DNA from: Haloarcula vallismortis ATCC 29715
GTDB taxonomy: Archaea; Halobacteriota; Halobacteria; Halobacteriales; Haloarculaceae
Assembly (NCBI RefSeq): GCF_000337775.1
Contig: NZ_AOLQ01000038.1
Location: 62,001-126,000, forward strand
DNA: 64,000 nt
Direction: 5' to 3'
Shown: positions 12,431-20,111 of the stretch, in pieces
Layout: every line of letters begins with the position of its first letter
Position numbering within the stretch: position 1 is the first letter of the stretch
Notes under the pieces: generated by a model
What the model saw: only the letters and a program-made list of their open reading frames with translations
Database searches by the model: none
Told to the model about the DNA's origin: nothing
Position numbers and translations under genes: made by a program

Positions 12431-13444
12431 ATGAGCAACTCACTATATTCCACAGCACGACAGGACAACCAGACGACTATCGTTCCCAGTACGGACATCG
12501 AGGCGGCCGTCGAGATGGCGGATCTCGTACCGGCTATCGAGGCCGCGTTCGCCGCATACGAAAACGACACAGCGCAGATGCCGCCGAAGTCCTACATCGA
12601 CCTGCCACAGCACAACGGGGACTTCCGGTCGATGCCGGCTTACCTCGAAACGGACGACTGGGAGGCGTCGGGTATCAAGTGGGTAAACGTGCACCCGGAC
12701 AACCCCGACGAGTTCGACCTGCCGACGGTGATGGGAACGCTCGTGTACACGGACCCCGAGAGCGGTTTCCCGCTTGCCGTGATGGACGCCACGACGCTGA
12801 CGATGAAACGAACCGGCGCGGCCGCCGCCGTGGCGACGGACCACCTCGCCGTCGAGGACGCGTCCTCGCTCGGCATCATCGGGGCCGGCGTCCAGTCCTA
12901 TACGCAACTGGAGGCTATCTCGCAGGTCCGACCGATAGAGACTGTCGTCGTCAGCGACCTCGACGACGAGCGCGTCCAGCGGTTTATCGACACCTTCGGC
13001 GATGAGTTCGACGTGCGAGCGGGCACGATTTCCGAGGCGGCCCAGTGTGACGTCCTGTCGACGGTCACGCCGGTCGAGGACCCCATCGTCACGCTCGACG
13101 ATCTCGGGGAGCACACGCACGTCAACGCCATGGGTGCCGACGCCGAAGGAAAGCAGGAACTCCACACCGAGGTCATCCGCGAGGCGACGCTCGTCATCGA
13201 CGACTTCGAACAGACGACCCACTCCGGCGAGATAAACGTCCCCTGGAGCGCGGGCGACATCGACGAGTCCGATATCGACGCCGAACTCGGCGAGATCGTC
13301 GTCGGGAACGCGCCGGGCCGCGAGGAGCTGTCCGGGATTACCGTCTTCGACTCGACCGGCCTCGCGATTCAGGACATCGCTGCCGCACGCATCGTGTACG
13401 AATCGCTCGGTGACGACAGCGGCCACCGCCTCGAAATGGTGTAA
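12431..13444 (+). CDS. Ornithine cyclodeaminase / mu-crystallin family dehydrogenase
   Basis: A 337-residue NAD(P)-binding protein of the OCD/mu-crystallin family, which includes archaeal alanine dehydrogenase and ornithine cyclodeaminase. Seen: the substrate-side Lys in GIKWVNVHPDNP, LTMKRTGAAAAVATDHLA, the dinucleotide-binding LGIIGAGVQSYTQLEAI, and the late GITVFDSTGLAIQD with the catalytic Asp. It would act on an amino or imino acid, which fits the nearby glutamate-like metabolism. A CATATA box (12409-12414) lies upstream at short spacing. The exact substrate is unclear. Confidence 0.8.
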   Translation: MSNSLYSTARQDNQTTIVPSTDIEAAVEMADLVPAIEAAFAAYENDTAQMPPKSYIDLPQHNGDFRSMPAYLETDDWEASGIKWVNVHPDNPDEFDLPTVMGTLVYTDPESGFPLAVMDATTLTMKRTGAAAAVATDHLAVEDASSLGIIGAGVQSYTQLEAISQVRPIETVVVSDLDDERVQRFIDTFGDEFDVRAGTISEAAQCDVLSTVTPVEDPIVTLDDLGEHTHVNAMGADAEGKQELHTEVIREATLVIDDFEQTTHSGEINVPWSAGDIDESDIDAELGEIVVGNAPGREELSGITVFDSTGLAIQDIAAARIVYESLGDDSGHRLEMV

Positions 13445-13561: not shown

Positions 13562-14521
13562 ATGCGACGCGTCATCATCGACACGGACACCGCGGGCGAC
13601 GACACGCAGGCGATTTTGCTTTCCTGTCTCAGCGACCGAGTCACCGTCGAGGCACTCACGATTGTCGCCGGCAACGTGCCCTTCGACCGGGAGGTGGAGA
13701 ACGCGAAGTACACGCTGGACCTCGCCGGCGCCGTGGACGTACCCGTCTACGAGGGGGCAAGACAGCCCCTGCTCAAGGAGTTCGAGCACGCGACGGACAT
13801 CCACGGCGAGGACGGCCTCGGCGGGGACGTGTTCCCCGACACCGGCATCGAGTCGGCGGCGGGGTTTGGTCCCGACGAGATCGTCGACCGCTGTCGGGCG
13901 GCCCCGGGTGAGATCACGCTGCTCTGTATCGGGCCGCTCACCAACATAGCGCTGGCGTACGCCCGCGAACCCGACCTGCCAGACCTCGTCGATGAACTGT
14001 GGGTGATGGGCGGGAACGTCAACTGCGAGGGAAACATCACCCCCGCCGCGGAATTCAATCTGTGGGTCGACCCCGATGCTGCCAGGCGCGTGTTCGATGC
14101 CTTCGAGGTGACGCTCGTCGACTGGGGCGTGTGTCTCCGGGACGCGGTGTTCAGCTCGCCGGAGTTCGAGGCGGTATCGGCGTTCGACACTGAACTGGCG
14201 TCGTTCTTCGAGTCGGTTACACAGCGGGCCCGAGCGTTCAACAGCGAGGGGTCACACGACCCCGGGTGGACGGCACTCCCGGACAGCGTCACCGCCGCGC
14301 TGCTTGCGTATCCGGAGCTCCGCGACGCGGTGTCGACGTACCACGTCGCAGTCGATGACCGCGAGGGACTCACCCGCGGGTACACCAGCGTCGACGTCAA
14401 CGGTGTGACCGACGGGGAGCCGAACACGCACGTGGTTGAATCCGTCGACAGCGATGCCTTCCAGTCAGTCATGTACTCGCTGCTCCAGTCCCGGGACCCA
14501 GATAGCGGCATCGCGGAGTGA
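13562..14521 (+). CDS. Nucleoside hydrolase (IunH/Rih family)
   Basis: A 319-residue inosine/uridine-preferring nucleoside hydrolase. The N-terminal calcium-binding cluster is DTDTAGDD (residues 7-14), matching the DTDxxxDD family motif; LLCIGPLTNIALAYAREP and LWVMGGNVNCEGNITPAAEFNLWVDPDAA supply more active-site residues. It cleaves ribonucleosides to base and ribose in the cytoplasm for salvage. The usual late active-site His is not obvious, so base preference is open. It is leaderless by promoter spacing. Confidence 0.88.
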   Translation: MRRVIIDTDTAGDDTQAILLSCLSDRVTVEALTIVAGNVPFDREVENAKYTLDLAGAVDVPVYEGARQPLLKEFEHATDIHGEDGLGGDVFPDTGIESAAGFGPDEIVDRCRAAPGEITLLCIGPLTNIALAYAREPDLPDLVDELWVMGGNVNCEGNITPAAEFNLWVDPDAARRVFDAFEVTLVDWGVCLRDAVFSSPEFEAVSAFDTELASFFESVTQRARAFNSEGSHDPGWTALPDSVTAALLAYPELRDAVSTYHVAVDDREGLTRGYTSVDVNGVTDGEPNTHVVESVDSDAFQSVMYSLLQSRDPDSGIAE

Positions 14522-14651
14522 GTCGGAGCCGGAGCCAAATGCGATAGTAGTGACGGTGTGCGTCGTAGTTGCCGCTGTGCGGGATGTGCCAGCAGACCTG
14601 CTGCCGCGTGTTGTCCCTGGTTTTTACTGGCGGCCGGCGGCATGTCGGGGT

Positions 14652-15734
14652 ATGACGCTCACAGACCGTCTCGACCAGTACCTCCGGACAGCGGGACTCG
14701 AAGCTGTCTGGTTCGCCCGGCCGAACTCCTTCGCGTGGCTCACCGGCGGCGGAGACAACGTCGTCGACCGGGAGGGCGACATCGGCGTCGCCGCAGCGGG
14801 CTACGACGGTGACGAAATCCGAGTCGTCGCCGACAACATTGAAGCGCCGCGGCTCCGTGACGAGGAACTCGACAGCGACGTGGCCGTCGAGACGTTCGAC
14901 TGGCACGCGGGGTCGCTGGCTGACGCCGTCGCCGAAGCGAGTCCAACCCCGGCGGCCGCAGATTTCGACATCCCTGGCTTCGAATCGGTTGCTGCCACAC
15001 AGCTCCGGCAGCCGCTGACCGAGACCCAGATCGAGCAGTGTCGTGGCCTCGCGCGGGACACGGCTGACGCAGTCGAGGCTGTCGCGCGAAACGTCGAGCC
15101 GTCCCACACCGAACTCGATGTAACCGCGGTGCTCCGACAGAAACTCGAAGGTCGCGGCATCGCCACACCAGTCGTACTCGTCGGCAGTGCCGAGCGGGCG
15201 CAATCCTACCGCCATTACACCTCGACTGACACTGAAATCGGTGACTATGCGCTCATCTCAGTGACTGTCCAGCGGAACGGCCTTCACGTCAGCACCACCC
15301 GGGCGGTCGCGTTCGACCCGCCAGAGTGGCTCATGGAGCGCACTCGCAAGGCCGCCCGCGTCGAGACCACTGCGCTGGCCGCGACACAGGCTGCTGGCCG
15401 GGATGGCGACACAGCGGGCGACGTGTTCGAGGCGATACAGGACGCCTACGCCGAGGTGGGCTGGGAAGGCGAGTGGCAGAACCATCATCAGGGCGGCGCG
15501 ACGGGCTTCGCCGGCCGCGAGTGGATCGCCACGCCCGAAAGCGAGGCTGAGGTCACGTTGCCGCAGGGGTACGCCTGGAACCCGACTATTGCCGGCACGA
15601 AGAGCGAGGACACGTATCTCGTCTCTGGTGACGACATCGAACTGCTGTCCGAGACCGGCGACTGGCCGACTGAGACGGTTTCGGCGGTCGGCTACGACCT
15701 CGAACTGCCGCGACACACAGTGCTGGAATTGTAG
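14652..15734 (+). CDS. M24 (pita-bread fold) protein lacking most metal ligands
   Basis: A 360-residue protein with a creatinase-like N-terminal domain (about 1-120) and an M24 aminopeptidase/prolidase C-terminal domain. Aligned to the family pattern, the two metal Asp positions are Ser203 (LISVTV) and Ser214 (VSTTRAV), and the first metal Glu is Asn310 (WNPTI). A His (278/279, NHHQGG) and the last Glu (319, KSEDTYLV) remain. It is therefore unlikely to be a two-metal peptidase; creatinase is a known metal-free relative. The ATG is about 30 nt after TTTTAC (14622-14627), hence leaderless. Substrate unknown. Confidence 0.72.
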   Translation: MTLTDRLDQYLRTAGLEAVWFARPNSFAWLTGGGDNVVDREGDIGVAAAGYDGDEIRVVADNIEAPRLRDEELDSDVAVETFDWHAGSLADAVAEASPTPAAADFDIPGFESVAATQLRQPLTETQIEQCRGLARDTADAVEAVARNVEPSHTELDVTAVLRQKLEGRGIATPVVLVGSAERAQSYRHYTSTDTEIGDYALISVTVQRNGLHVSTTRAVAFDPPEWLMERTRKAARVETTALAATQAAGRDGDTAGDVFEAIQDAYAEVGWEGEWQNHHQGGATGFAGREWIATPESEAEVTLPQGYAWNPTIAGTKSEDTYLVSGDDIELLSETGDWPTETVSAVGYDLELPRHTVLEL

Positions 15735-15830: not shown

Positions 15831-17540
15831 ATGACCGCAGAGCGCGCCTGGTGGAAAGAGGCGGTCGTCTACCAGATTTACCCACAGAGCTTCAACGACA
15901 GCGACGGTGACGGCGTCGGTGACCTCCAAGGTATCATCGAGCGACTGGACTACGTCGCCGACCTCGGCGTCGACGTTATCTGGCTCAATCCGGTGTACCA
16001 GTCGCCACAGGTCGACAACGGCTACGACATCAGCGACTACCGCGCCATCCACGAGGCGTACGGGACCATGGCCGACTGGGAGGAACTGCTCGACGAGATT
16101 CACGCCCGGGACATGCGACTCGTTATGGACCTCGTGGTCAACCACACCTCCGACGACCACGAGTGGTTCCAGCGCTCGCGCCGAGACGAGGACGGCTACC
16201 GCGACTACTACATCTGGCGCGAGGGCGACACCGACGAGGACGGCGAGCCAGTGCCGCCGAACAACTGGACCACCGGCTTCGGCGGGTCAGCCTGGACCGA
16301 CGACGAACAGGTCGGGACACAGTACCTCCACCTGTTTCACGAGCGCCAGCCGGACCTGAACTGGGAGAACGCCGAGGTCCGGTCGGACATCTACGAGATG
16401 ATCGACTGGTGGCTGGCGAAGGGCATCGACGGCTTCCGGATGGACGTCATCAATCTCATCTCCAAGCCGGAGGGGCTGCCCGACGGCGACCCGGACAAAG
16501 GATGGGTCGGCATCGAGCACTTCGCCGACGGCCCCCGAGCACAGGAGTTCCTCGAAGAGATGGCCGCCGAGACGTTCGACAACTACGACTCGATGACGGT
16601 CGGCGAGTGCGTCGACATCGACGTCGACACCGCCGGGGACTACGTCAGCGCCGACGGGCCACTGGACATGGTGTTTCACTTCGAACACATGCTCCTCGAC
16701 CAGCAGGAGGGGTGGTGGACCATCGAAGACTGGTCGCTGCCCGAGCTGAAGTCGGTGATGGCCGAGTGGCAGACCGACCTCGACGGCTGGAACACGGTCT
16801 ATCTGGGCAACCACGACCAGCCCCGAATCGTCTCCCGCTTCGGCGATGACGGGGAGTACCGCGAGGAGTCGGCGAAACTACTGGCGACGTTCCTGCTTAC
16901 GCATCAGGGGACGCCGTTCCTGTTCCAAGGCGACGAGATCGGCATGACGAACTGCCCATGGGAGTCCATCGACGAGATGCGCGACGCGGACGCGACGAAC
17001 CGCGTCCGACTCGCCCTAGAATCGGGCGACATCGAGGACTACGACGAGGCCCGCGAGGTCGTCGAGTTCCGGTCGCGGGACAACGCCCGGACGCCGATGC
17101 AGTGGAACGACTCCCGGAACGCCGGCTTCACCGACGGCGACCCCTGGATACAAGTCAATCCGAACTACGAGGACGTGAACGTCGCCGCGGCCGAAGCAGC
17201 CGAGGACAGCATCCTGTCGTACTACCGTGACCTCATCGACCTCCGGAGCGACCTGGACGTGCTCGTCTACGGCGAGTACGAACTGCTACTGCCCGACCAC
17301 GAAACGGTGTACGCCTATCGGCGCACGCTCGACGACCCGGCGGTCGATGTCGACGACGTTCTGATAGTGTTAAACATCTCGCCGACGGCCACGCGCGTCT
17401 CGGTCCCGGTCGAGGCCGAGGCAACACCGCTGTTCGGGAACGAACTGGACACGGCGACCGAATCCGGCAGCCACGATGTCACAGACGCGGCATTGCAGCC
17501 GTACGAAGCGCGCCTCTACGAACTCTCAGAGCAACAATGA
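15831..17540 (+). CDS. GH13 alpha-glucosidase (oligo-1,6-glucosidase type)
   Basis: A 569-residue cytoplasmic glycoside hydrolase (no signal peptide). Catalytic residues are D205 (nucleophile, GFRMDVINL), E259 (acid/base, TVGECVD) and D329 (GNHDQPR). Val206 after the nucleophile is the residue linked to alpha-1,6 preference in this subfamily. The N-terminus WWKEAVVYQIYPQSFNDSDGDG matches isomaltases. It would release glucose from imported malto- or isomalto-oligosaccharides. Its stop overlaps the start of a second GH13 gene, forming an operon. The acid/base loop differs from the usual GEMPG. Confidence 0.9.
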   Translation: MTAERAWWKEAVVYQIYPQSFNDSDGDGVGDLQGIIERLDYVADLGVDVIWLNPVYQSPQVDNGYDISDYRAIHEAYGTMADWEELLDEIHARDMRLVMDLVVNHTSDDHEWFQRSRRDEDGYRDYYIWREGDTDEDGEPVPPNNWTTGFGGSAWTDDEQVGTQYLHLFHERQPDLNWENAEVRSDIYEMIDWWLAKGIDGFRMDVINLISKPEGLPDGDPDKGWVGIEHFADGPRAQEFLEEMAAETFDNYDSMTVGECVDIDVDTAGDYVSADGPLDMVFHFEHMLLDQQEGWWTIEDWSLPELKSVMAEWQTDLDGWNTVYLGNHDQPRIVSRFGDDGEYREESAKLLATFLLTHQGTPFLFQGDEIGMTNCPWESIDEMRDADATNRVRLALESGDIEDYDEAREVVEFRSRDNARTPMQWNDSRNAGFTDGDPWIQVNPNYEDVNVAAAEAAEDSILSYYRDLIDLRSDLDVLVYGEYELLLPDHETVYAYRRTLDDPAVDVDDVLIVLNISPTATRVSVPVEAEATPLFGNELDTATESGSHDVTDAALQPYEARLYELSEQQ

Positions 17541-19261
17541 TGTCATCGCAGATACTTTCCGACGGCGAACTGGACCGCGAATGGTGGAAAGAAGCAGTCG
17601 TCTATCAGATCTACCCACGGAGTTTCAGCGATGGCGACGGCGACGGCGTCGGCGACCTACAGGGAATCATCGACCGACTGGACTACGTCGCCGACCTCGG
17701 CGTCGACGTTATCTGGCTCAACCCAGTCTATGACTCTCCACAGGAGGACAACGGCTACGACATCAGCGATTACCGGACCATCTATCACGAGTTCGGGACG
17801 ATGGCCGACTGGGAAGCGCTCCTCGAAGCAGTCCACGACCGGGACATGCGGCTTGTCATGGACCTCGTCGTCAACCACACGTCAGACCAACACGAGTGGT
17901 TCCAGAAGTCCCGACAGCGCGACCCGGCATACGAGGACTACTACATCTGGCGCGAGGGCGACACTGACGAGGACGGCGAGCCAGTGCCGCCGAACAACTG
18001 GGAATCGTTCTTCGGTGGCTCCGCCTGGGAGTACGACGAGGTGCGCGGCGAGTACTACCTCCACCTGTACGACACCTCACAGCCGGACCTGAACTGGCGC
18101 AACGACGCCGTCCGACAGGATGTCTTCGACACCATCGAGTGGTGGCTGGAGAAGGGCATCGACGGCTTCCGGATGGATGTCATCAACCTCCTGTCGAAAG
18201 TCGAGGGACTGCCCGACGGCGACCCGGACAGCGAATGGACCGGCTCCGAGCACTTCATTGACGGCCCGGAGATGCAGTCGTATCTGACGGCGCTGGACGA
18301 GGCGGTGCTGTCGAACTACGACGTGATGACCGTCGGCGAGATGCCACAGCTCACCGTCGAGTCGGCCCGGGAATACGCTGGCACAGACGGCCCGCTGGAC
18401 ATGGCGTTTCACTTCCAGCACACGAAACTCGACTACGACGACGGCGAGCGATGGTCGGTCGGCGATTGGAGCCTGCCGGAGCTGAAAACCATCGTCGACC
18501 GCTGGCAGGACGGGCTGGCGGCGGACGGCTGGAATACGCTGTACTGGGAGAACCACGACCAACCACGTAGCGTCTCCCGCTACGGCGACCCCGAGAACTA
18601 CCGCCGGGAGTCCGCGACGCTGCTCGGAACGTTCGTCCTCACGCTCCGTGGAACGCCCTACATCTACCAAGGGCAGGAACTCGGGATGACTAACGCCGAC
18701 TGGGAGACGATGGACGCCCTCCGTGACGTGGACGCCATCAACCACGCGCGGGAGCTACTCGAGCGAAACGGTGTCGATGAGTACGATGACGTGAGAGAGG
18801 TCGTCGGCTACCGGACCCGCGACAACGCCCGGACGCCGATGCAGTGGGACGACTCCCGAAACGCCGGCTTCACCGACGGCGACCCCTGGATAAAGGTCAA
18901 TCCAAACTACAGAGAGATCAACGCCACTGCCCAGCGAACAGACGAAGAGTCCGTTTACAGCTACTACCGGCGACTCATCCAGTTGCGCTCTGACAGGGAC
19001 GTACTGGTGTACGGAGACTACACCGACTTGCTCCCCGGCCACGAAACCGTCTTCGCGTTCACGCGGTCGCTATCGACGGACGCGGGAACCGAGCGAGTCC
19101 TCGTCGTCCTGCACTTCGACGACGGGACCGAGACTATCGACCTTCCGGTCGAGTACGCCGATGCGACGCTACGTGAGTGTAACTACGACCGCGACGACAC
19201 GGACCCGGAGATGGTGACGCTTGCGCCGTACGAGGCTCGCGTCTACGAACTGTTCGACTGA
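17537..19261 (+). CDS. Second GH13 alpha-glucosidase, tandem paralogue
   Basis: A 574-residue paralogue of the preceding enzyme, start codon overlapping its stop by 4 nt (17537-17540). Catalytic residues are D214 (GFRMDVINL, with Val215), E268 (TVGEMPQLT) and D341 (WENHDQPR). The GEMP loop is nearer to classic oligo-1,6-glucosidases than that of the first copy (GECVDI), so the two probably differ in chain length or linkage preference after duplication. Cytoplasmic, same pathway. The start has two adjacent ATGs. Confidence 0.9.
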   Translation: MMSSQILSDGELDREWWKEAVVYQIYPRSFSDGDGDGVGDLQGIIDRLDYVADLGVDVIWLNPVYDSPQEDNGYDISDYRTIYHEFGTMADWEALLEAVHDRDMRLVMDLVVNHTSDQHEWFQKSRQRDPAYEDYYIWREGDTDEDGEPVPPNNWESFFGGSAWEYDEVRGEYYLHLYDTSQPDLNWRNDAVRQDVFDTIEWWLEKGIDGFRMDVINLLSKVEGLPDGDPDSEWTGSEHFIDGPEMQSYLTALDEAVLSNYDVMTVGEMPQLTVESAREYAGTDGPLDMAFHFQHTKLDYDDGERWSVGDWSLPELKTIVDRWQDGLAADGWNTLYWENHDQPRSVSRYGDPENYRRESATLLGTFVLTLRGTPYIYQGQELGMTNADWETMDALRDVDAINHARELLERNGVDEYDDVREVVGYRTRDNARTPMQWDDSRNAGFTDGDPWIKVNPNYREINATAQRTDEESVYSYYRRLIQLRSDRDVLVYGDYTDLLPGHETVFAFTRSLSTDAGTERVLVVLHFDDGTETIDLPVEYADATLRECNYDRDDTDPEMVTLAPYEARVYELFD

Positions 19262-19340: not shown

Positions 19341-20111
19341 ATGTACCTTGCCGACGAGACCTGGCCGGACCTCGGCGACTATTTCGAGACGGAGTCGCTC
19401 GCGCTCGTGCCGCTGGGGTCGACTGAACAACACGGGCCGCATCTCCCGCTGGCGACAGACCACCTCATCGGGGAAGCCTTCGCCCGGGAAGCTGCCGACA
19501 GAACTGGCTATCTCTGTACCCCGACGATCAACGTCGGCGTGAGCCCGCACCACAGACAGTTCAACGGGACGATGTGGGTCGACGCGCCAGTCTTTCGCGA
19601 CTACGTCGAGTCGTTCACCCGGAATCTGGCCTACCACGGCATCGACCGGGTCATCTACGTGAACGCCCACGGCGGGAACGTCGAACACCTGCGAGAGGTC
19701 GGCCGTCGGCTCCGGGACGACGAAGTCCTGTACGCAATCGAGTGGATGTGGGACGAGAGCATCCCGGACCTCGTAGACGACCTGTTCGAACAGAACGGAC
19801 CACACGGCGGCCCGAAAGAAACGGCCATGATTCAACACCTGCGCTCCGAACTGGTTCACGACGACCGCCTCGAAGACGCGCGGGACGGCGGGATTCCGAG
19901 CGTCGAGGCGGCGGAGACAAAGAAGTACGGCTCGCGAACCTTCTACGACGCCGCCGACAACACCGCCAATGGCGTTCTGGGCGACCAGACCGACGCCACG
20001 GCCGAAAAGGGCGCGGAGATGTTCGAAGCGGCAACCGAACAGCTCGTCAGGCTCTGTGAGTGGCTGGACTCGCAAGCGTTCGACGACCTGCTGCCTGAGC
20101 CACACGTCTGA
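19341..20111 (+). CDS. Creatininase-family amidohydrolase
   Basis: A 256-residue creatininase-fold protein. Metal-binding and core motifs: the E and H of PLGSTEQHGPHLPLATDHLIG, VGVSPHHRQFNGTMW, VIYVNAHGGNVEHLREV, and a Glu in GGPKETAMIQHLRSELV. Archaeal members include ArfB, the formylaminopyrimidine deformylase of the flavin/F420 route, which is an attractive role but not distinguishable by sight from other creatininase-like amidases. The ATG at 19341 is used because homology starts there. It follows the GH13 pair by 79 nt. Confidence 0.8.
   Translation: MYLADETWPDLGDYFETESLALVPLGSTEQHGPHLPLATDHLIGEAFAREAADRTGYLCTPTINVGVSPHHRQFNGTMWVDAPVFRDYVESFTRNLAYHGIDRVIYVNAHGGNVEHLREVGRRLRDDEVLYAIEWMWDESIPDLVDDLFEQNGPHGGPKETAMIQHLRSELVHDDRLEDARDGGIPSVEAAETKKYGSRTFYDAADNTANGVLGDQTDATAEKGAEMFEAATEQLVRLCEWLDSQAFDDLLPEPHV

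Follow-up and report, generated by a model that had tools for sequence, protein, structure and literature searches.

A distinct, probably metal-free family of the M24 fold with recurrent placement in sugar loci

Introduction

Creatinase and the ectoine hydrolase EutD both carry out metal-free hydrolysis within the pita-bread (M24) fold, and for EutD/DoeA this is the hydrolysis of a ring. The fold is also that of prolidase, or Xaa-Pro dipeptidase (M24B), and of aminopeptidase P. The five metal ligands of the catalytic M24 enzymes are Asp-Asp-His-Glu-Glu. The His residue of the PHG motif in prolidases presumably occupies the position of the catalytic His of creatinase. Another member of the superfamily, the DMSP lyase DddP, has been turned to a nonpeptidase elimination reaction, and the DddP enzymes are metalloenzymes according to PMC4108388. 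A nonpeptidase M24 pseudoenzyme, LmaPA2G4/Ebp1, is described in PMC3888471.

Here we describe P0001, an M24-fold protein encoded in the window, by which we mean the whole 64,000-nucleotide stretch of Haloarcula vallismortis ATCC 29715 DNA that was analyzed. It belongs to a distinct and probably metal-free family within the pita-bread fold, which is marked by the absence of four of the five metal ligands and by a new set of invariant residues. Our leading proposal, held with middling confidence, is that the protein is a metal-free enzyme for a sugar-derived compound and not a peptidase. If so, a fold shared by peptidases, creatinase, and ectoine hydrolase would support further metal-free chemistry, and archaeal and bacterial sugar use would include an enzyme that has gone unrecognized.

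P0001 is an intact protein with a prolidase-like fold

The gene for P0001 is listed with its neighbors and its active-site codons in Table 1. It is present in one copy in its own genome, and comparison with five Haloarcula orthologues gave dN/dS values of 0.094 to 0.140; the gene is intact and under purifying selection. A search reaching close relatives only returned 13 genome contigs with related genes, all from haloarchaea and at 56 to 92% identity, the nearest being those of Haloarcula. By eye, the sequence TTTTTA at positions 14621 to 14626, 26 to 31 bases 5′ of the ATG, resembles the TATA box that precedes leaderless transcripts in haloarchaea, and the gene may have its own promoter. A promoter scan reported bacterial-type sites only, and the bacterial consensus is uninformative for an archaeal host.

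Table 1. Features of the window in the region of the M24-fold gene. Residue counts refer to the 81 family sequences; the 17 loci are the related loci scanned.
Feature	Position	Strand	Remarks
Ornithine cyclodeaminase/mu-crystallin family gene	12431..13444	+	PF02423; upstream; only in L001-L004 of 17 loci
Inosine-uridine nucleoside hydrolase family gene	13562..14521	+	PF01156; upstream; only in L001-L005 of 17 loci
M24-fold protein without metal site, P0001	14652..15734	+	360 aa; ATG start; 0 internal stops
His188	15213..15215	+	Opposite the PHG His of prolidases; present in 80/81
Ser203	15258..15260	+	First metal Asp position; S 65, T 8, V 5, I 2, A 1; Asp 0/81
Ser214	15291..15293	+	Second metal Asp position; S 72, A 5, N 4; Asp 0/81
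His278-His279-Gln280-Gly281-Gly282 (HHQGG)	15483..15497	+	Gly282 at the metal His position; all five 81/81
Arg289	15516..15518	+	Position of the conserved prolidase active-site His; 81/81
Asn310 (WNP)	15579..15581	+	Position of the first metal Glu (EPG); 81/81
Glu319	15606..15608	+	Last metal Glu; sole ligand kept of five; 81/81
GH13 alpha-glucosidase-like gene	15831..17540	+	PF00128; directly downstream of the M24-fold gene
Second GH13 alpha-glucosidase-like gene	17537..19261	+	
Creatininase family gene	19341..20111	+	PF02633; only in L001-L005 of 17 loci

Pfam recognizes Peptidase_M24 (PF00557) in P0001 at 39.2 bits (cut-off 23) and gives Creatinase_N a subthreshold 16.6 bits (cut-off 22). 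The NCBIfam collection yielded two weak, chance-like matches, and its M24, eutD/doeA, and DddP models were absent at E ≤ 1. Nevertheless, both domains are present, as a sequence-only reading of this DNA had held, because the alignment to PDB sequences (HMMER) spans residues 3 to 335 and two-domain prolidases can be aligned with the predicted model over its entire length. At E ≤ 1e-3, the family profile matches 31 PDB sequences, which are prolidases, aminopeptidases P, and methionine aminopeptidases; neither creatinase nor EutD is among them.

Structure comparison leads to the same group. With the first predicted model as the query, prolidases were the best matches, for example 2zsg (Z 24.0, rmsd 2.1 Å over 221 residues) and 4rgz (Z 23.8, rmsd 2.2 Å over 218 residues), and these superpositions cover mostly the C-terminal domain. 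EutD (Z 21.4, rmsd 9.5 over 300 residues) and creatinase (Z 21.1, rmsd 10.1 over 307 residues) share the fold, and Spt16 is also among the structural matches. Since the rmsd over the full length is near 10 Å, the model is not a reliable guide to how the two domains sit relative to each other. The first model has a pLDDT of 76.3, with values below 50 at residues 24 to 45 and 280 to 292, and the second has a pLDDT of 76.9, with values below 50 at residues 281 to 284 and 287 to 289 among others. Confidence is therefore low right where the active site would be expected, and the geometry of the pocket stays a prediction. P0001 thus has a prolidase-like M24 fold, agreeing with prolidases in fold, domain order, and best sequence and structure matches. 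In a phylogenetic tree, the 81 family rows split from three other M24 proteins with an SH-aLRT value of 99; because the branches are long, we claim no branching order among the bacteria.

A different set of invariant residues occupies the metal site

The family set consists of 81 distinct sequences from 92 loci, picked by similarity to P0001 (tblastn, E ≤ 1e-15). When P0001 was tested for the five M24 ligands, Ser203, Ser214, Gly282, Asn310, and Glu319 were found in their places, and four of the five ligands are lost in all 81 sequences. The segment NHHQGGATGFAGREW of P0001 aligns without gaps to the prolidase pattern HSLGHGVGLEVHEW, which sets Gly282 opposite the metal His. The sequence-only reading had correctly placed Ser203 and Ser214 at the two metal Asp positions and Asn310 at that of the first Glu, with Glu319 as the last Glu retained, according to the alignments with prolidases. 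Its count of a remaining His must be corrected: the metal His is replaced as well, His188, His278, and His279 all differ from the ligand, and four ligands rather than three have been lost. As for the conservation of the Ser, Ser, and Asn substitutes among relatives, Asn310 is invariant, whereas Ser203 and Ser214 are common but not fixed.

The residues found in 81 of 81 sequences are Trp29, Arg67, Glu71, Trp84, Glu154, Arg182, Arg217, His278, His279, Gln280, Gly281, Gly282, Arg289, Asn310, Pro311, and Glu319. Some of the prolidase site persists, since Glu319 is joined by His278, whose counterpart in prolidases is the leading, nonligand His of HxxGHG, and by the PHG-type His. The HHQGG segment, in which His279 is new, and also Arg289 and the WNP motif are new and fixed, and these set the family apart from prolidases along with its presence in many sugar loci. 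Two of the equivalences vary with the alignment: that of His188 with the PHG His is taken from HMMER alignments (MAFFT sets His188 two columns off), and that of WNP with EPG is read from the sequences and the M24 comparator alignment (MAFFT gaps shift the match by a few columns). As comparators, 31 other M24 loci of related genomes yielded 18 readable rows, 12 of which have the canonical D-D, GHG, EPG, and ED residues; the rest comprise one of the methionine aminopeptidase type and five from other odd groups. The remaining 13 rows, which were empty or translated in the wrong frame or strand, were left out.

The dN/dS values, taken with residues that are fixed across 81 sequences, indicate a conserved, rebuilt site that reflects neither chance nor decay, in keeping with the earlier judgment that the gene is not a decayed one. 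A rebuilt site could in principle still hold a metal. Three invariant or nearly invariant His residues (His188, His278, and His279) and the invariant Glu319 lie at active-site positions and could bind one metal ion at a relocated site, and the pocket where they would meet is modeled with low confidence in both predictions. However, the other four ancestral ligands are gone, two invariant Arg residues (Arg217 and Arg289) lie in the same region, and His278 (in the alignments) and His188 (in the HMMER alignments) match prolidase His residues that are not ligands. We consider it improbable, therefore, that the family consists of metalloenzymes with a relocated site. The proposal that P0001 works metal-free and that the metallopeptidase label is a misnomer instead gains support from the conserved loss of four ligands and from the labels given to its relatives.

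The family is widespread in haloarchaea and extends to bacterial plasmids

A match to the family profile at E ≤ 1e-30 was found in 154 of 194 haloarchaeal genomes, representing 50 of 65 genera. Across a phylum-wide sample, 25 of 196 genomes match, and 24 of these 25 belong to the same order as the source of the window. P0001 matches 38 records of a plasmid collection. The one from Anoxybacillus encodes an ordinary prolidase as judged by its residues, leaving 37 records: Pantoea (12), Thermus (11), haloarchaea (11), and one each from Deinococcus, Nostoc, and Gloeothece. When the Nostoc and Deinococcus proteins served as queries, each returned 37 records of the same make-up, with the Anoxybacillus record absent. 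The members from Thermus, Deinococcus, Pantoea, Nostoc, and Gloeothece are 26 to 34% identical to P0001. Bacterial members are known from the plasmid collection only, a sample that favors accessory catabolic loci. A search of viral contigs found no relatives of P0001.

The public records of most relatives read “M24 family metallopeptidase”, yet every one of the 81 sequences is missing four of the five ligands that such a name implies. On a Haladaptatus salinisoli plasmid (L101:8001-9049), a member lies where no gene is annotated and aligns in two pieces, which might mean either that the copy is broken or that the gene table is incomplete there.

Neighbors in the window and in close relatives

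In the window, two GH13 genes follow the P0001 gene, and a GH13 gene is the next one downstream of the M24-fold gene in 10 of the 17 related loci scanned. The nucleoside hydrolase, cyclodeaminase, and creatininase neighbors are confined, among these 17 loci, to close Haloarcula relatives. Ornithine cyclodeaminase-family and creatininase-family proteins are met in ectoine and creatinine use. Their presence near the gene, together with the metal-free chemistry of EutD and creatinase and their structural match to the model, is what one would expect if P0001 were a creatinase-like or ectoine hydrolase-like enzyme acting on a guanidino or cyclic amidine compound. Several observations argue against this. 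The cyclodeaminase-family gene occurs in only four of the 17 loci and the creatininase-family gene, which is the only creatinine-type neighbor, in five, all in the closest Haloarcula relatives. In addition, the cyclodeaminase of the window reaches 172.8 bits with the eutC model, whose cut-off is 471.65, and its best fit is to archaeal alanine dehydrogenase at 350.6 bits, itself below the cut-off of 409.15. P0001 matches no eutD or doeA model, creatinase and EutD do not appear among the PDB sequences matched, and no ectoine or creatinine gene names occur in the 20 annotated plasmid loci described below, whose gene tables are incomplete. An enzyme for guanidino or cyclic amidine compounds is thus very unlikely.

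The absence of creatinase from the sequence matches also makes it look as if the metal was lost independently of creatinase. The sequence-only reading had likened P0001 to creatinase, and one part of that likeness stands: a His is kept at the PHG position, and a creatinase-like mode of action is possible for this reason. Descent from creatinase, by contrast, is unsupported by the PDB matches, and the neighboring genes suggest sugars, not creatine or ectoine.

Many members lie in sugar loci

To characterize gene context more widely, annotation was compared around 20 of the 37 plasmid loci and around the Anoxybacillus record. Three of the 11 Thermus records were included, and these share the order xylF, ABC permease and ATPase, ROK regulator, xylA, xylB, M24-fold gene, and Gfo/Idh. 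The Thermus gene thus sits inside the xylose operon, immediately 3′ of xylB and 5′ of the Gfo/Idh oxidoreductase gene. In 10 of the 11 haloarchaeal plasmid copies, a gene named as an arabinofuranosidase lies within 8 kb, compared with none of 166 listed genes in four control stretches. In Nostoc, malQ immediately precedes the gene, and in Gloeothece a glucoamylase gene is three genes off. The three Pantoea loci compared (of 12) carry ROK, MFS, and GMC oxidoreductase genes followed by the M24-fold gene and an SDR gene, and some annotated loci have an aldo/keto reductase partner.

A sugar-named gene, by a keyword list of our own, lies within three genes at 14 of the 20 plasmid loci versus 21 of 142 control positions. 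Grouping the loci by hand gives 10 of 14 gene arrangements with such a gene. Oxidoreductase-named genes lie equally close at 13 of the 20 loci and at 38 of the 142 control positions, so these are frequent among the controls as well. The control positions come from four 50-kb stretches on four of the same plasmids and overlap one another, and the plasmid gene tables are incomplete; the Fisher values therefore overstate significance and serve as a rough guide. Six of the 20 loci (three from Pantoea, one from Deinococcus, and two from haloarchaeal plasmids) have no sugar-named gene within three genes. Placement in sugar loci is therefore recurrent and holds for many members.

A different arrangement prevails at other haloarchaeal loci. 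A CtaA-like gene lies on the opposite strand in 19 of 47 loci and a malic enzyme gene lies downstream in 15 of 47, these 47 being the loci, out of 51, in which a simple gene caller detected the M24-fold gene. With tblastn coordinates for all 51 loci, a hand count found one or both of these neighbors no more than five genes away in 28. Neighbors at the haloarchaeal loci were named through 19 cluster representatives, and sugar genes there are incompletely scored. These neighbors show that the link to sugar genes is not universal and limit what can be concluded from it, and their conserved order may be mere inheritance.

The CtaA-like and malic enzyme neighbors, being no sugar operon, would also suit a noncatalytic binding or regulatory protein, like Spt16 and Ebp1 of the same fold. 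The metal ligands are gone, and the fold does serve as a binding module; the resemblance of P0001 to the Spt16/Ebp1 type consists of a match in predicted fold. Against such a role, the acid-base and charged residues at active-site positions do not vary among haloarchaea, Thermus, Pantoea, and cyanobacteria even where overall identity is as low as 26 to 34%, as one expects of an active site, and the Thermus copy lies within a metabolic operon. We regard a purely binding or regulatory function as unlikely, while granting it a real chance.

The Thermus xylose genes are named in the part of PMC5292009 available, and the M24-fold gene is absent from that list. The accessible text of PMC8551123 does not mention “peptidase” or “M24”, that of PMC8305020 does not mention “M24” or “Xaa-Pro”, and in the available main text of PMC10448506, which includes sugar-induced genes, “peptidase” and “M24” do not occur. 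Among the matches listed in a literature search, the titles and abstract openings gave no description of the present family.

A possible link to a levoglucosan-like route

In the levoglucosan, or 3-keto-glycoside, route as presented in the available part of PMC7676230, LgdA first carries out an oxidation, after which LgdB1 catalyzes an elimination, LgdB2 a hydration, and LgdC a reduction, and Mn left product formation by LgdB1 unchanged. Haloarculaceae relatives have LgdA-like and hydratase-like genes ahead of the M24-fold gene. Among the 51 haloarchaeal loci, a Gfo/Idh gene is immediately upstream in L007, L008, L009, L012, L076, and L086, one gene further off in L013, and four genes off in L057. 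The best curated model for this haloarchaeal Gfo/Idh protein is levoglucosan dehydrogenase, at 345 bits where the cut-off is 650. Among solved structures, the protein is most similar to the oxidoreductase 4h3v (E 2e-103), followed by 6a3f (E 2.5e-88), which is labeled a “putative dehydrogenase” and which we take to be levoglucosan dehydrogenase. In L008, L012, L013, L076, and L086, the Gfo/Idh gene is preceded by a TIM-barrel gene whose product weakly resembles the 2-hydroxy-3-keto-glucal hydratase 8ro4 (E 5e-9), a match that ranks second to 2zds.

In the H. vallismortis genome itself, a TIM-barrel (AP_endonuc_2) gene, an AIM24-family gene, and a levoglucosan dehydrogenase-like Gfo/Idh gene lie together at C38:35365-38762 (L141). 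This cluster is about 38 kb from the M24-fold gene on the same contig, and the same set precedes the gene in related genera.

Co-occurrence was assessed in the 40 genomes, among the 194 haloarchaeal ones, of the same family as the source of the window, of which 21 have the gene and 19 lack it. Of the 21, the Gfo/Idh gene is found in 20, the TIM-barrel gene in 20, and the GH13 gene in 19, and the corresponding counts for genomes without the M24-fold gene are 8, 5, and 6 of 19. The genomes are related to one another, and a comparison by genus showed no significant difference. Since the levoglucosan dehydrogenase-like and TIM-barrel genes do occur in genomes that lack the M24-fold gene, neither requires it. 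The M24-fold protein may supply the elimination step that is otherwise missing from a levoglucosan-like route, and the presence of the partner genes in genomes without it counts against this role. Neither “M24” nor “peptidase” appears in the available text of the levoglucosan-route papers PMC7676230 and PMC10066097.

A candidate metal-free mechanism

The loss of the metals and the gain of fixed His, Arg, and Asn residues suggest acid-base catalysis. We propose that His188 and the His278/His279 pair would act as acid and base in proton transfer and that Arg217, Arg289, Asn310, and Glu319 would hold the substrate in place of the metals; a sugar could stack against Trp29 and Trp84. The substrate would be a small sugar or an oxidized sugar. 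The reaction might be the opening of a sugar lactone or other ring, the removal of a group from a keto sugar, or the interconversion of anomers; within the sugar reading, we view lactone opening, keto-sugar elimination or hydrolysis, and mutarotation as about equally likely. The recurring partners, which are oxidoreductases and proteins that release or convert sugars, would fit a step right after oxidation or right before isomerization. Such chemistry would be akin to that of creatinase and ectoine hydrolase, carried out in the same fold on another class of substrate. It would differ from that of DddP, which is a metalloenzyme.

In its broadest form, our proposal is that haloarchaea, Thermus/Deinococcus, Pantoea, and cyanobacteria share a prolidase-derived, cofactor-free family of sugar enzymes, hidden under the metallopeptidase name, in which a His/Arg/Asn/Glu site replaces the two metals. 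We advance this version tentatively, as one that may well not hold in full.

Other atypical M24 proteins

Further M24 proteins with altered sites were seen in haloarchaea. One (L133) is without the GHG His and EPG, and three others (L127, L131, and L134) have Glu at the second Asp position and keep HHxGH. Another (L096:931-2202; C55:23993-24634 in the H. vallismortis genome) is distantly DddP-like, at 86.8 of 600 bits, and has Cys at the second metal Asp position by alignment. Its 15 best plasmid matches are all haloarchaeal, at 82 to 98% identity.
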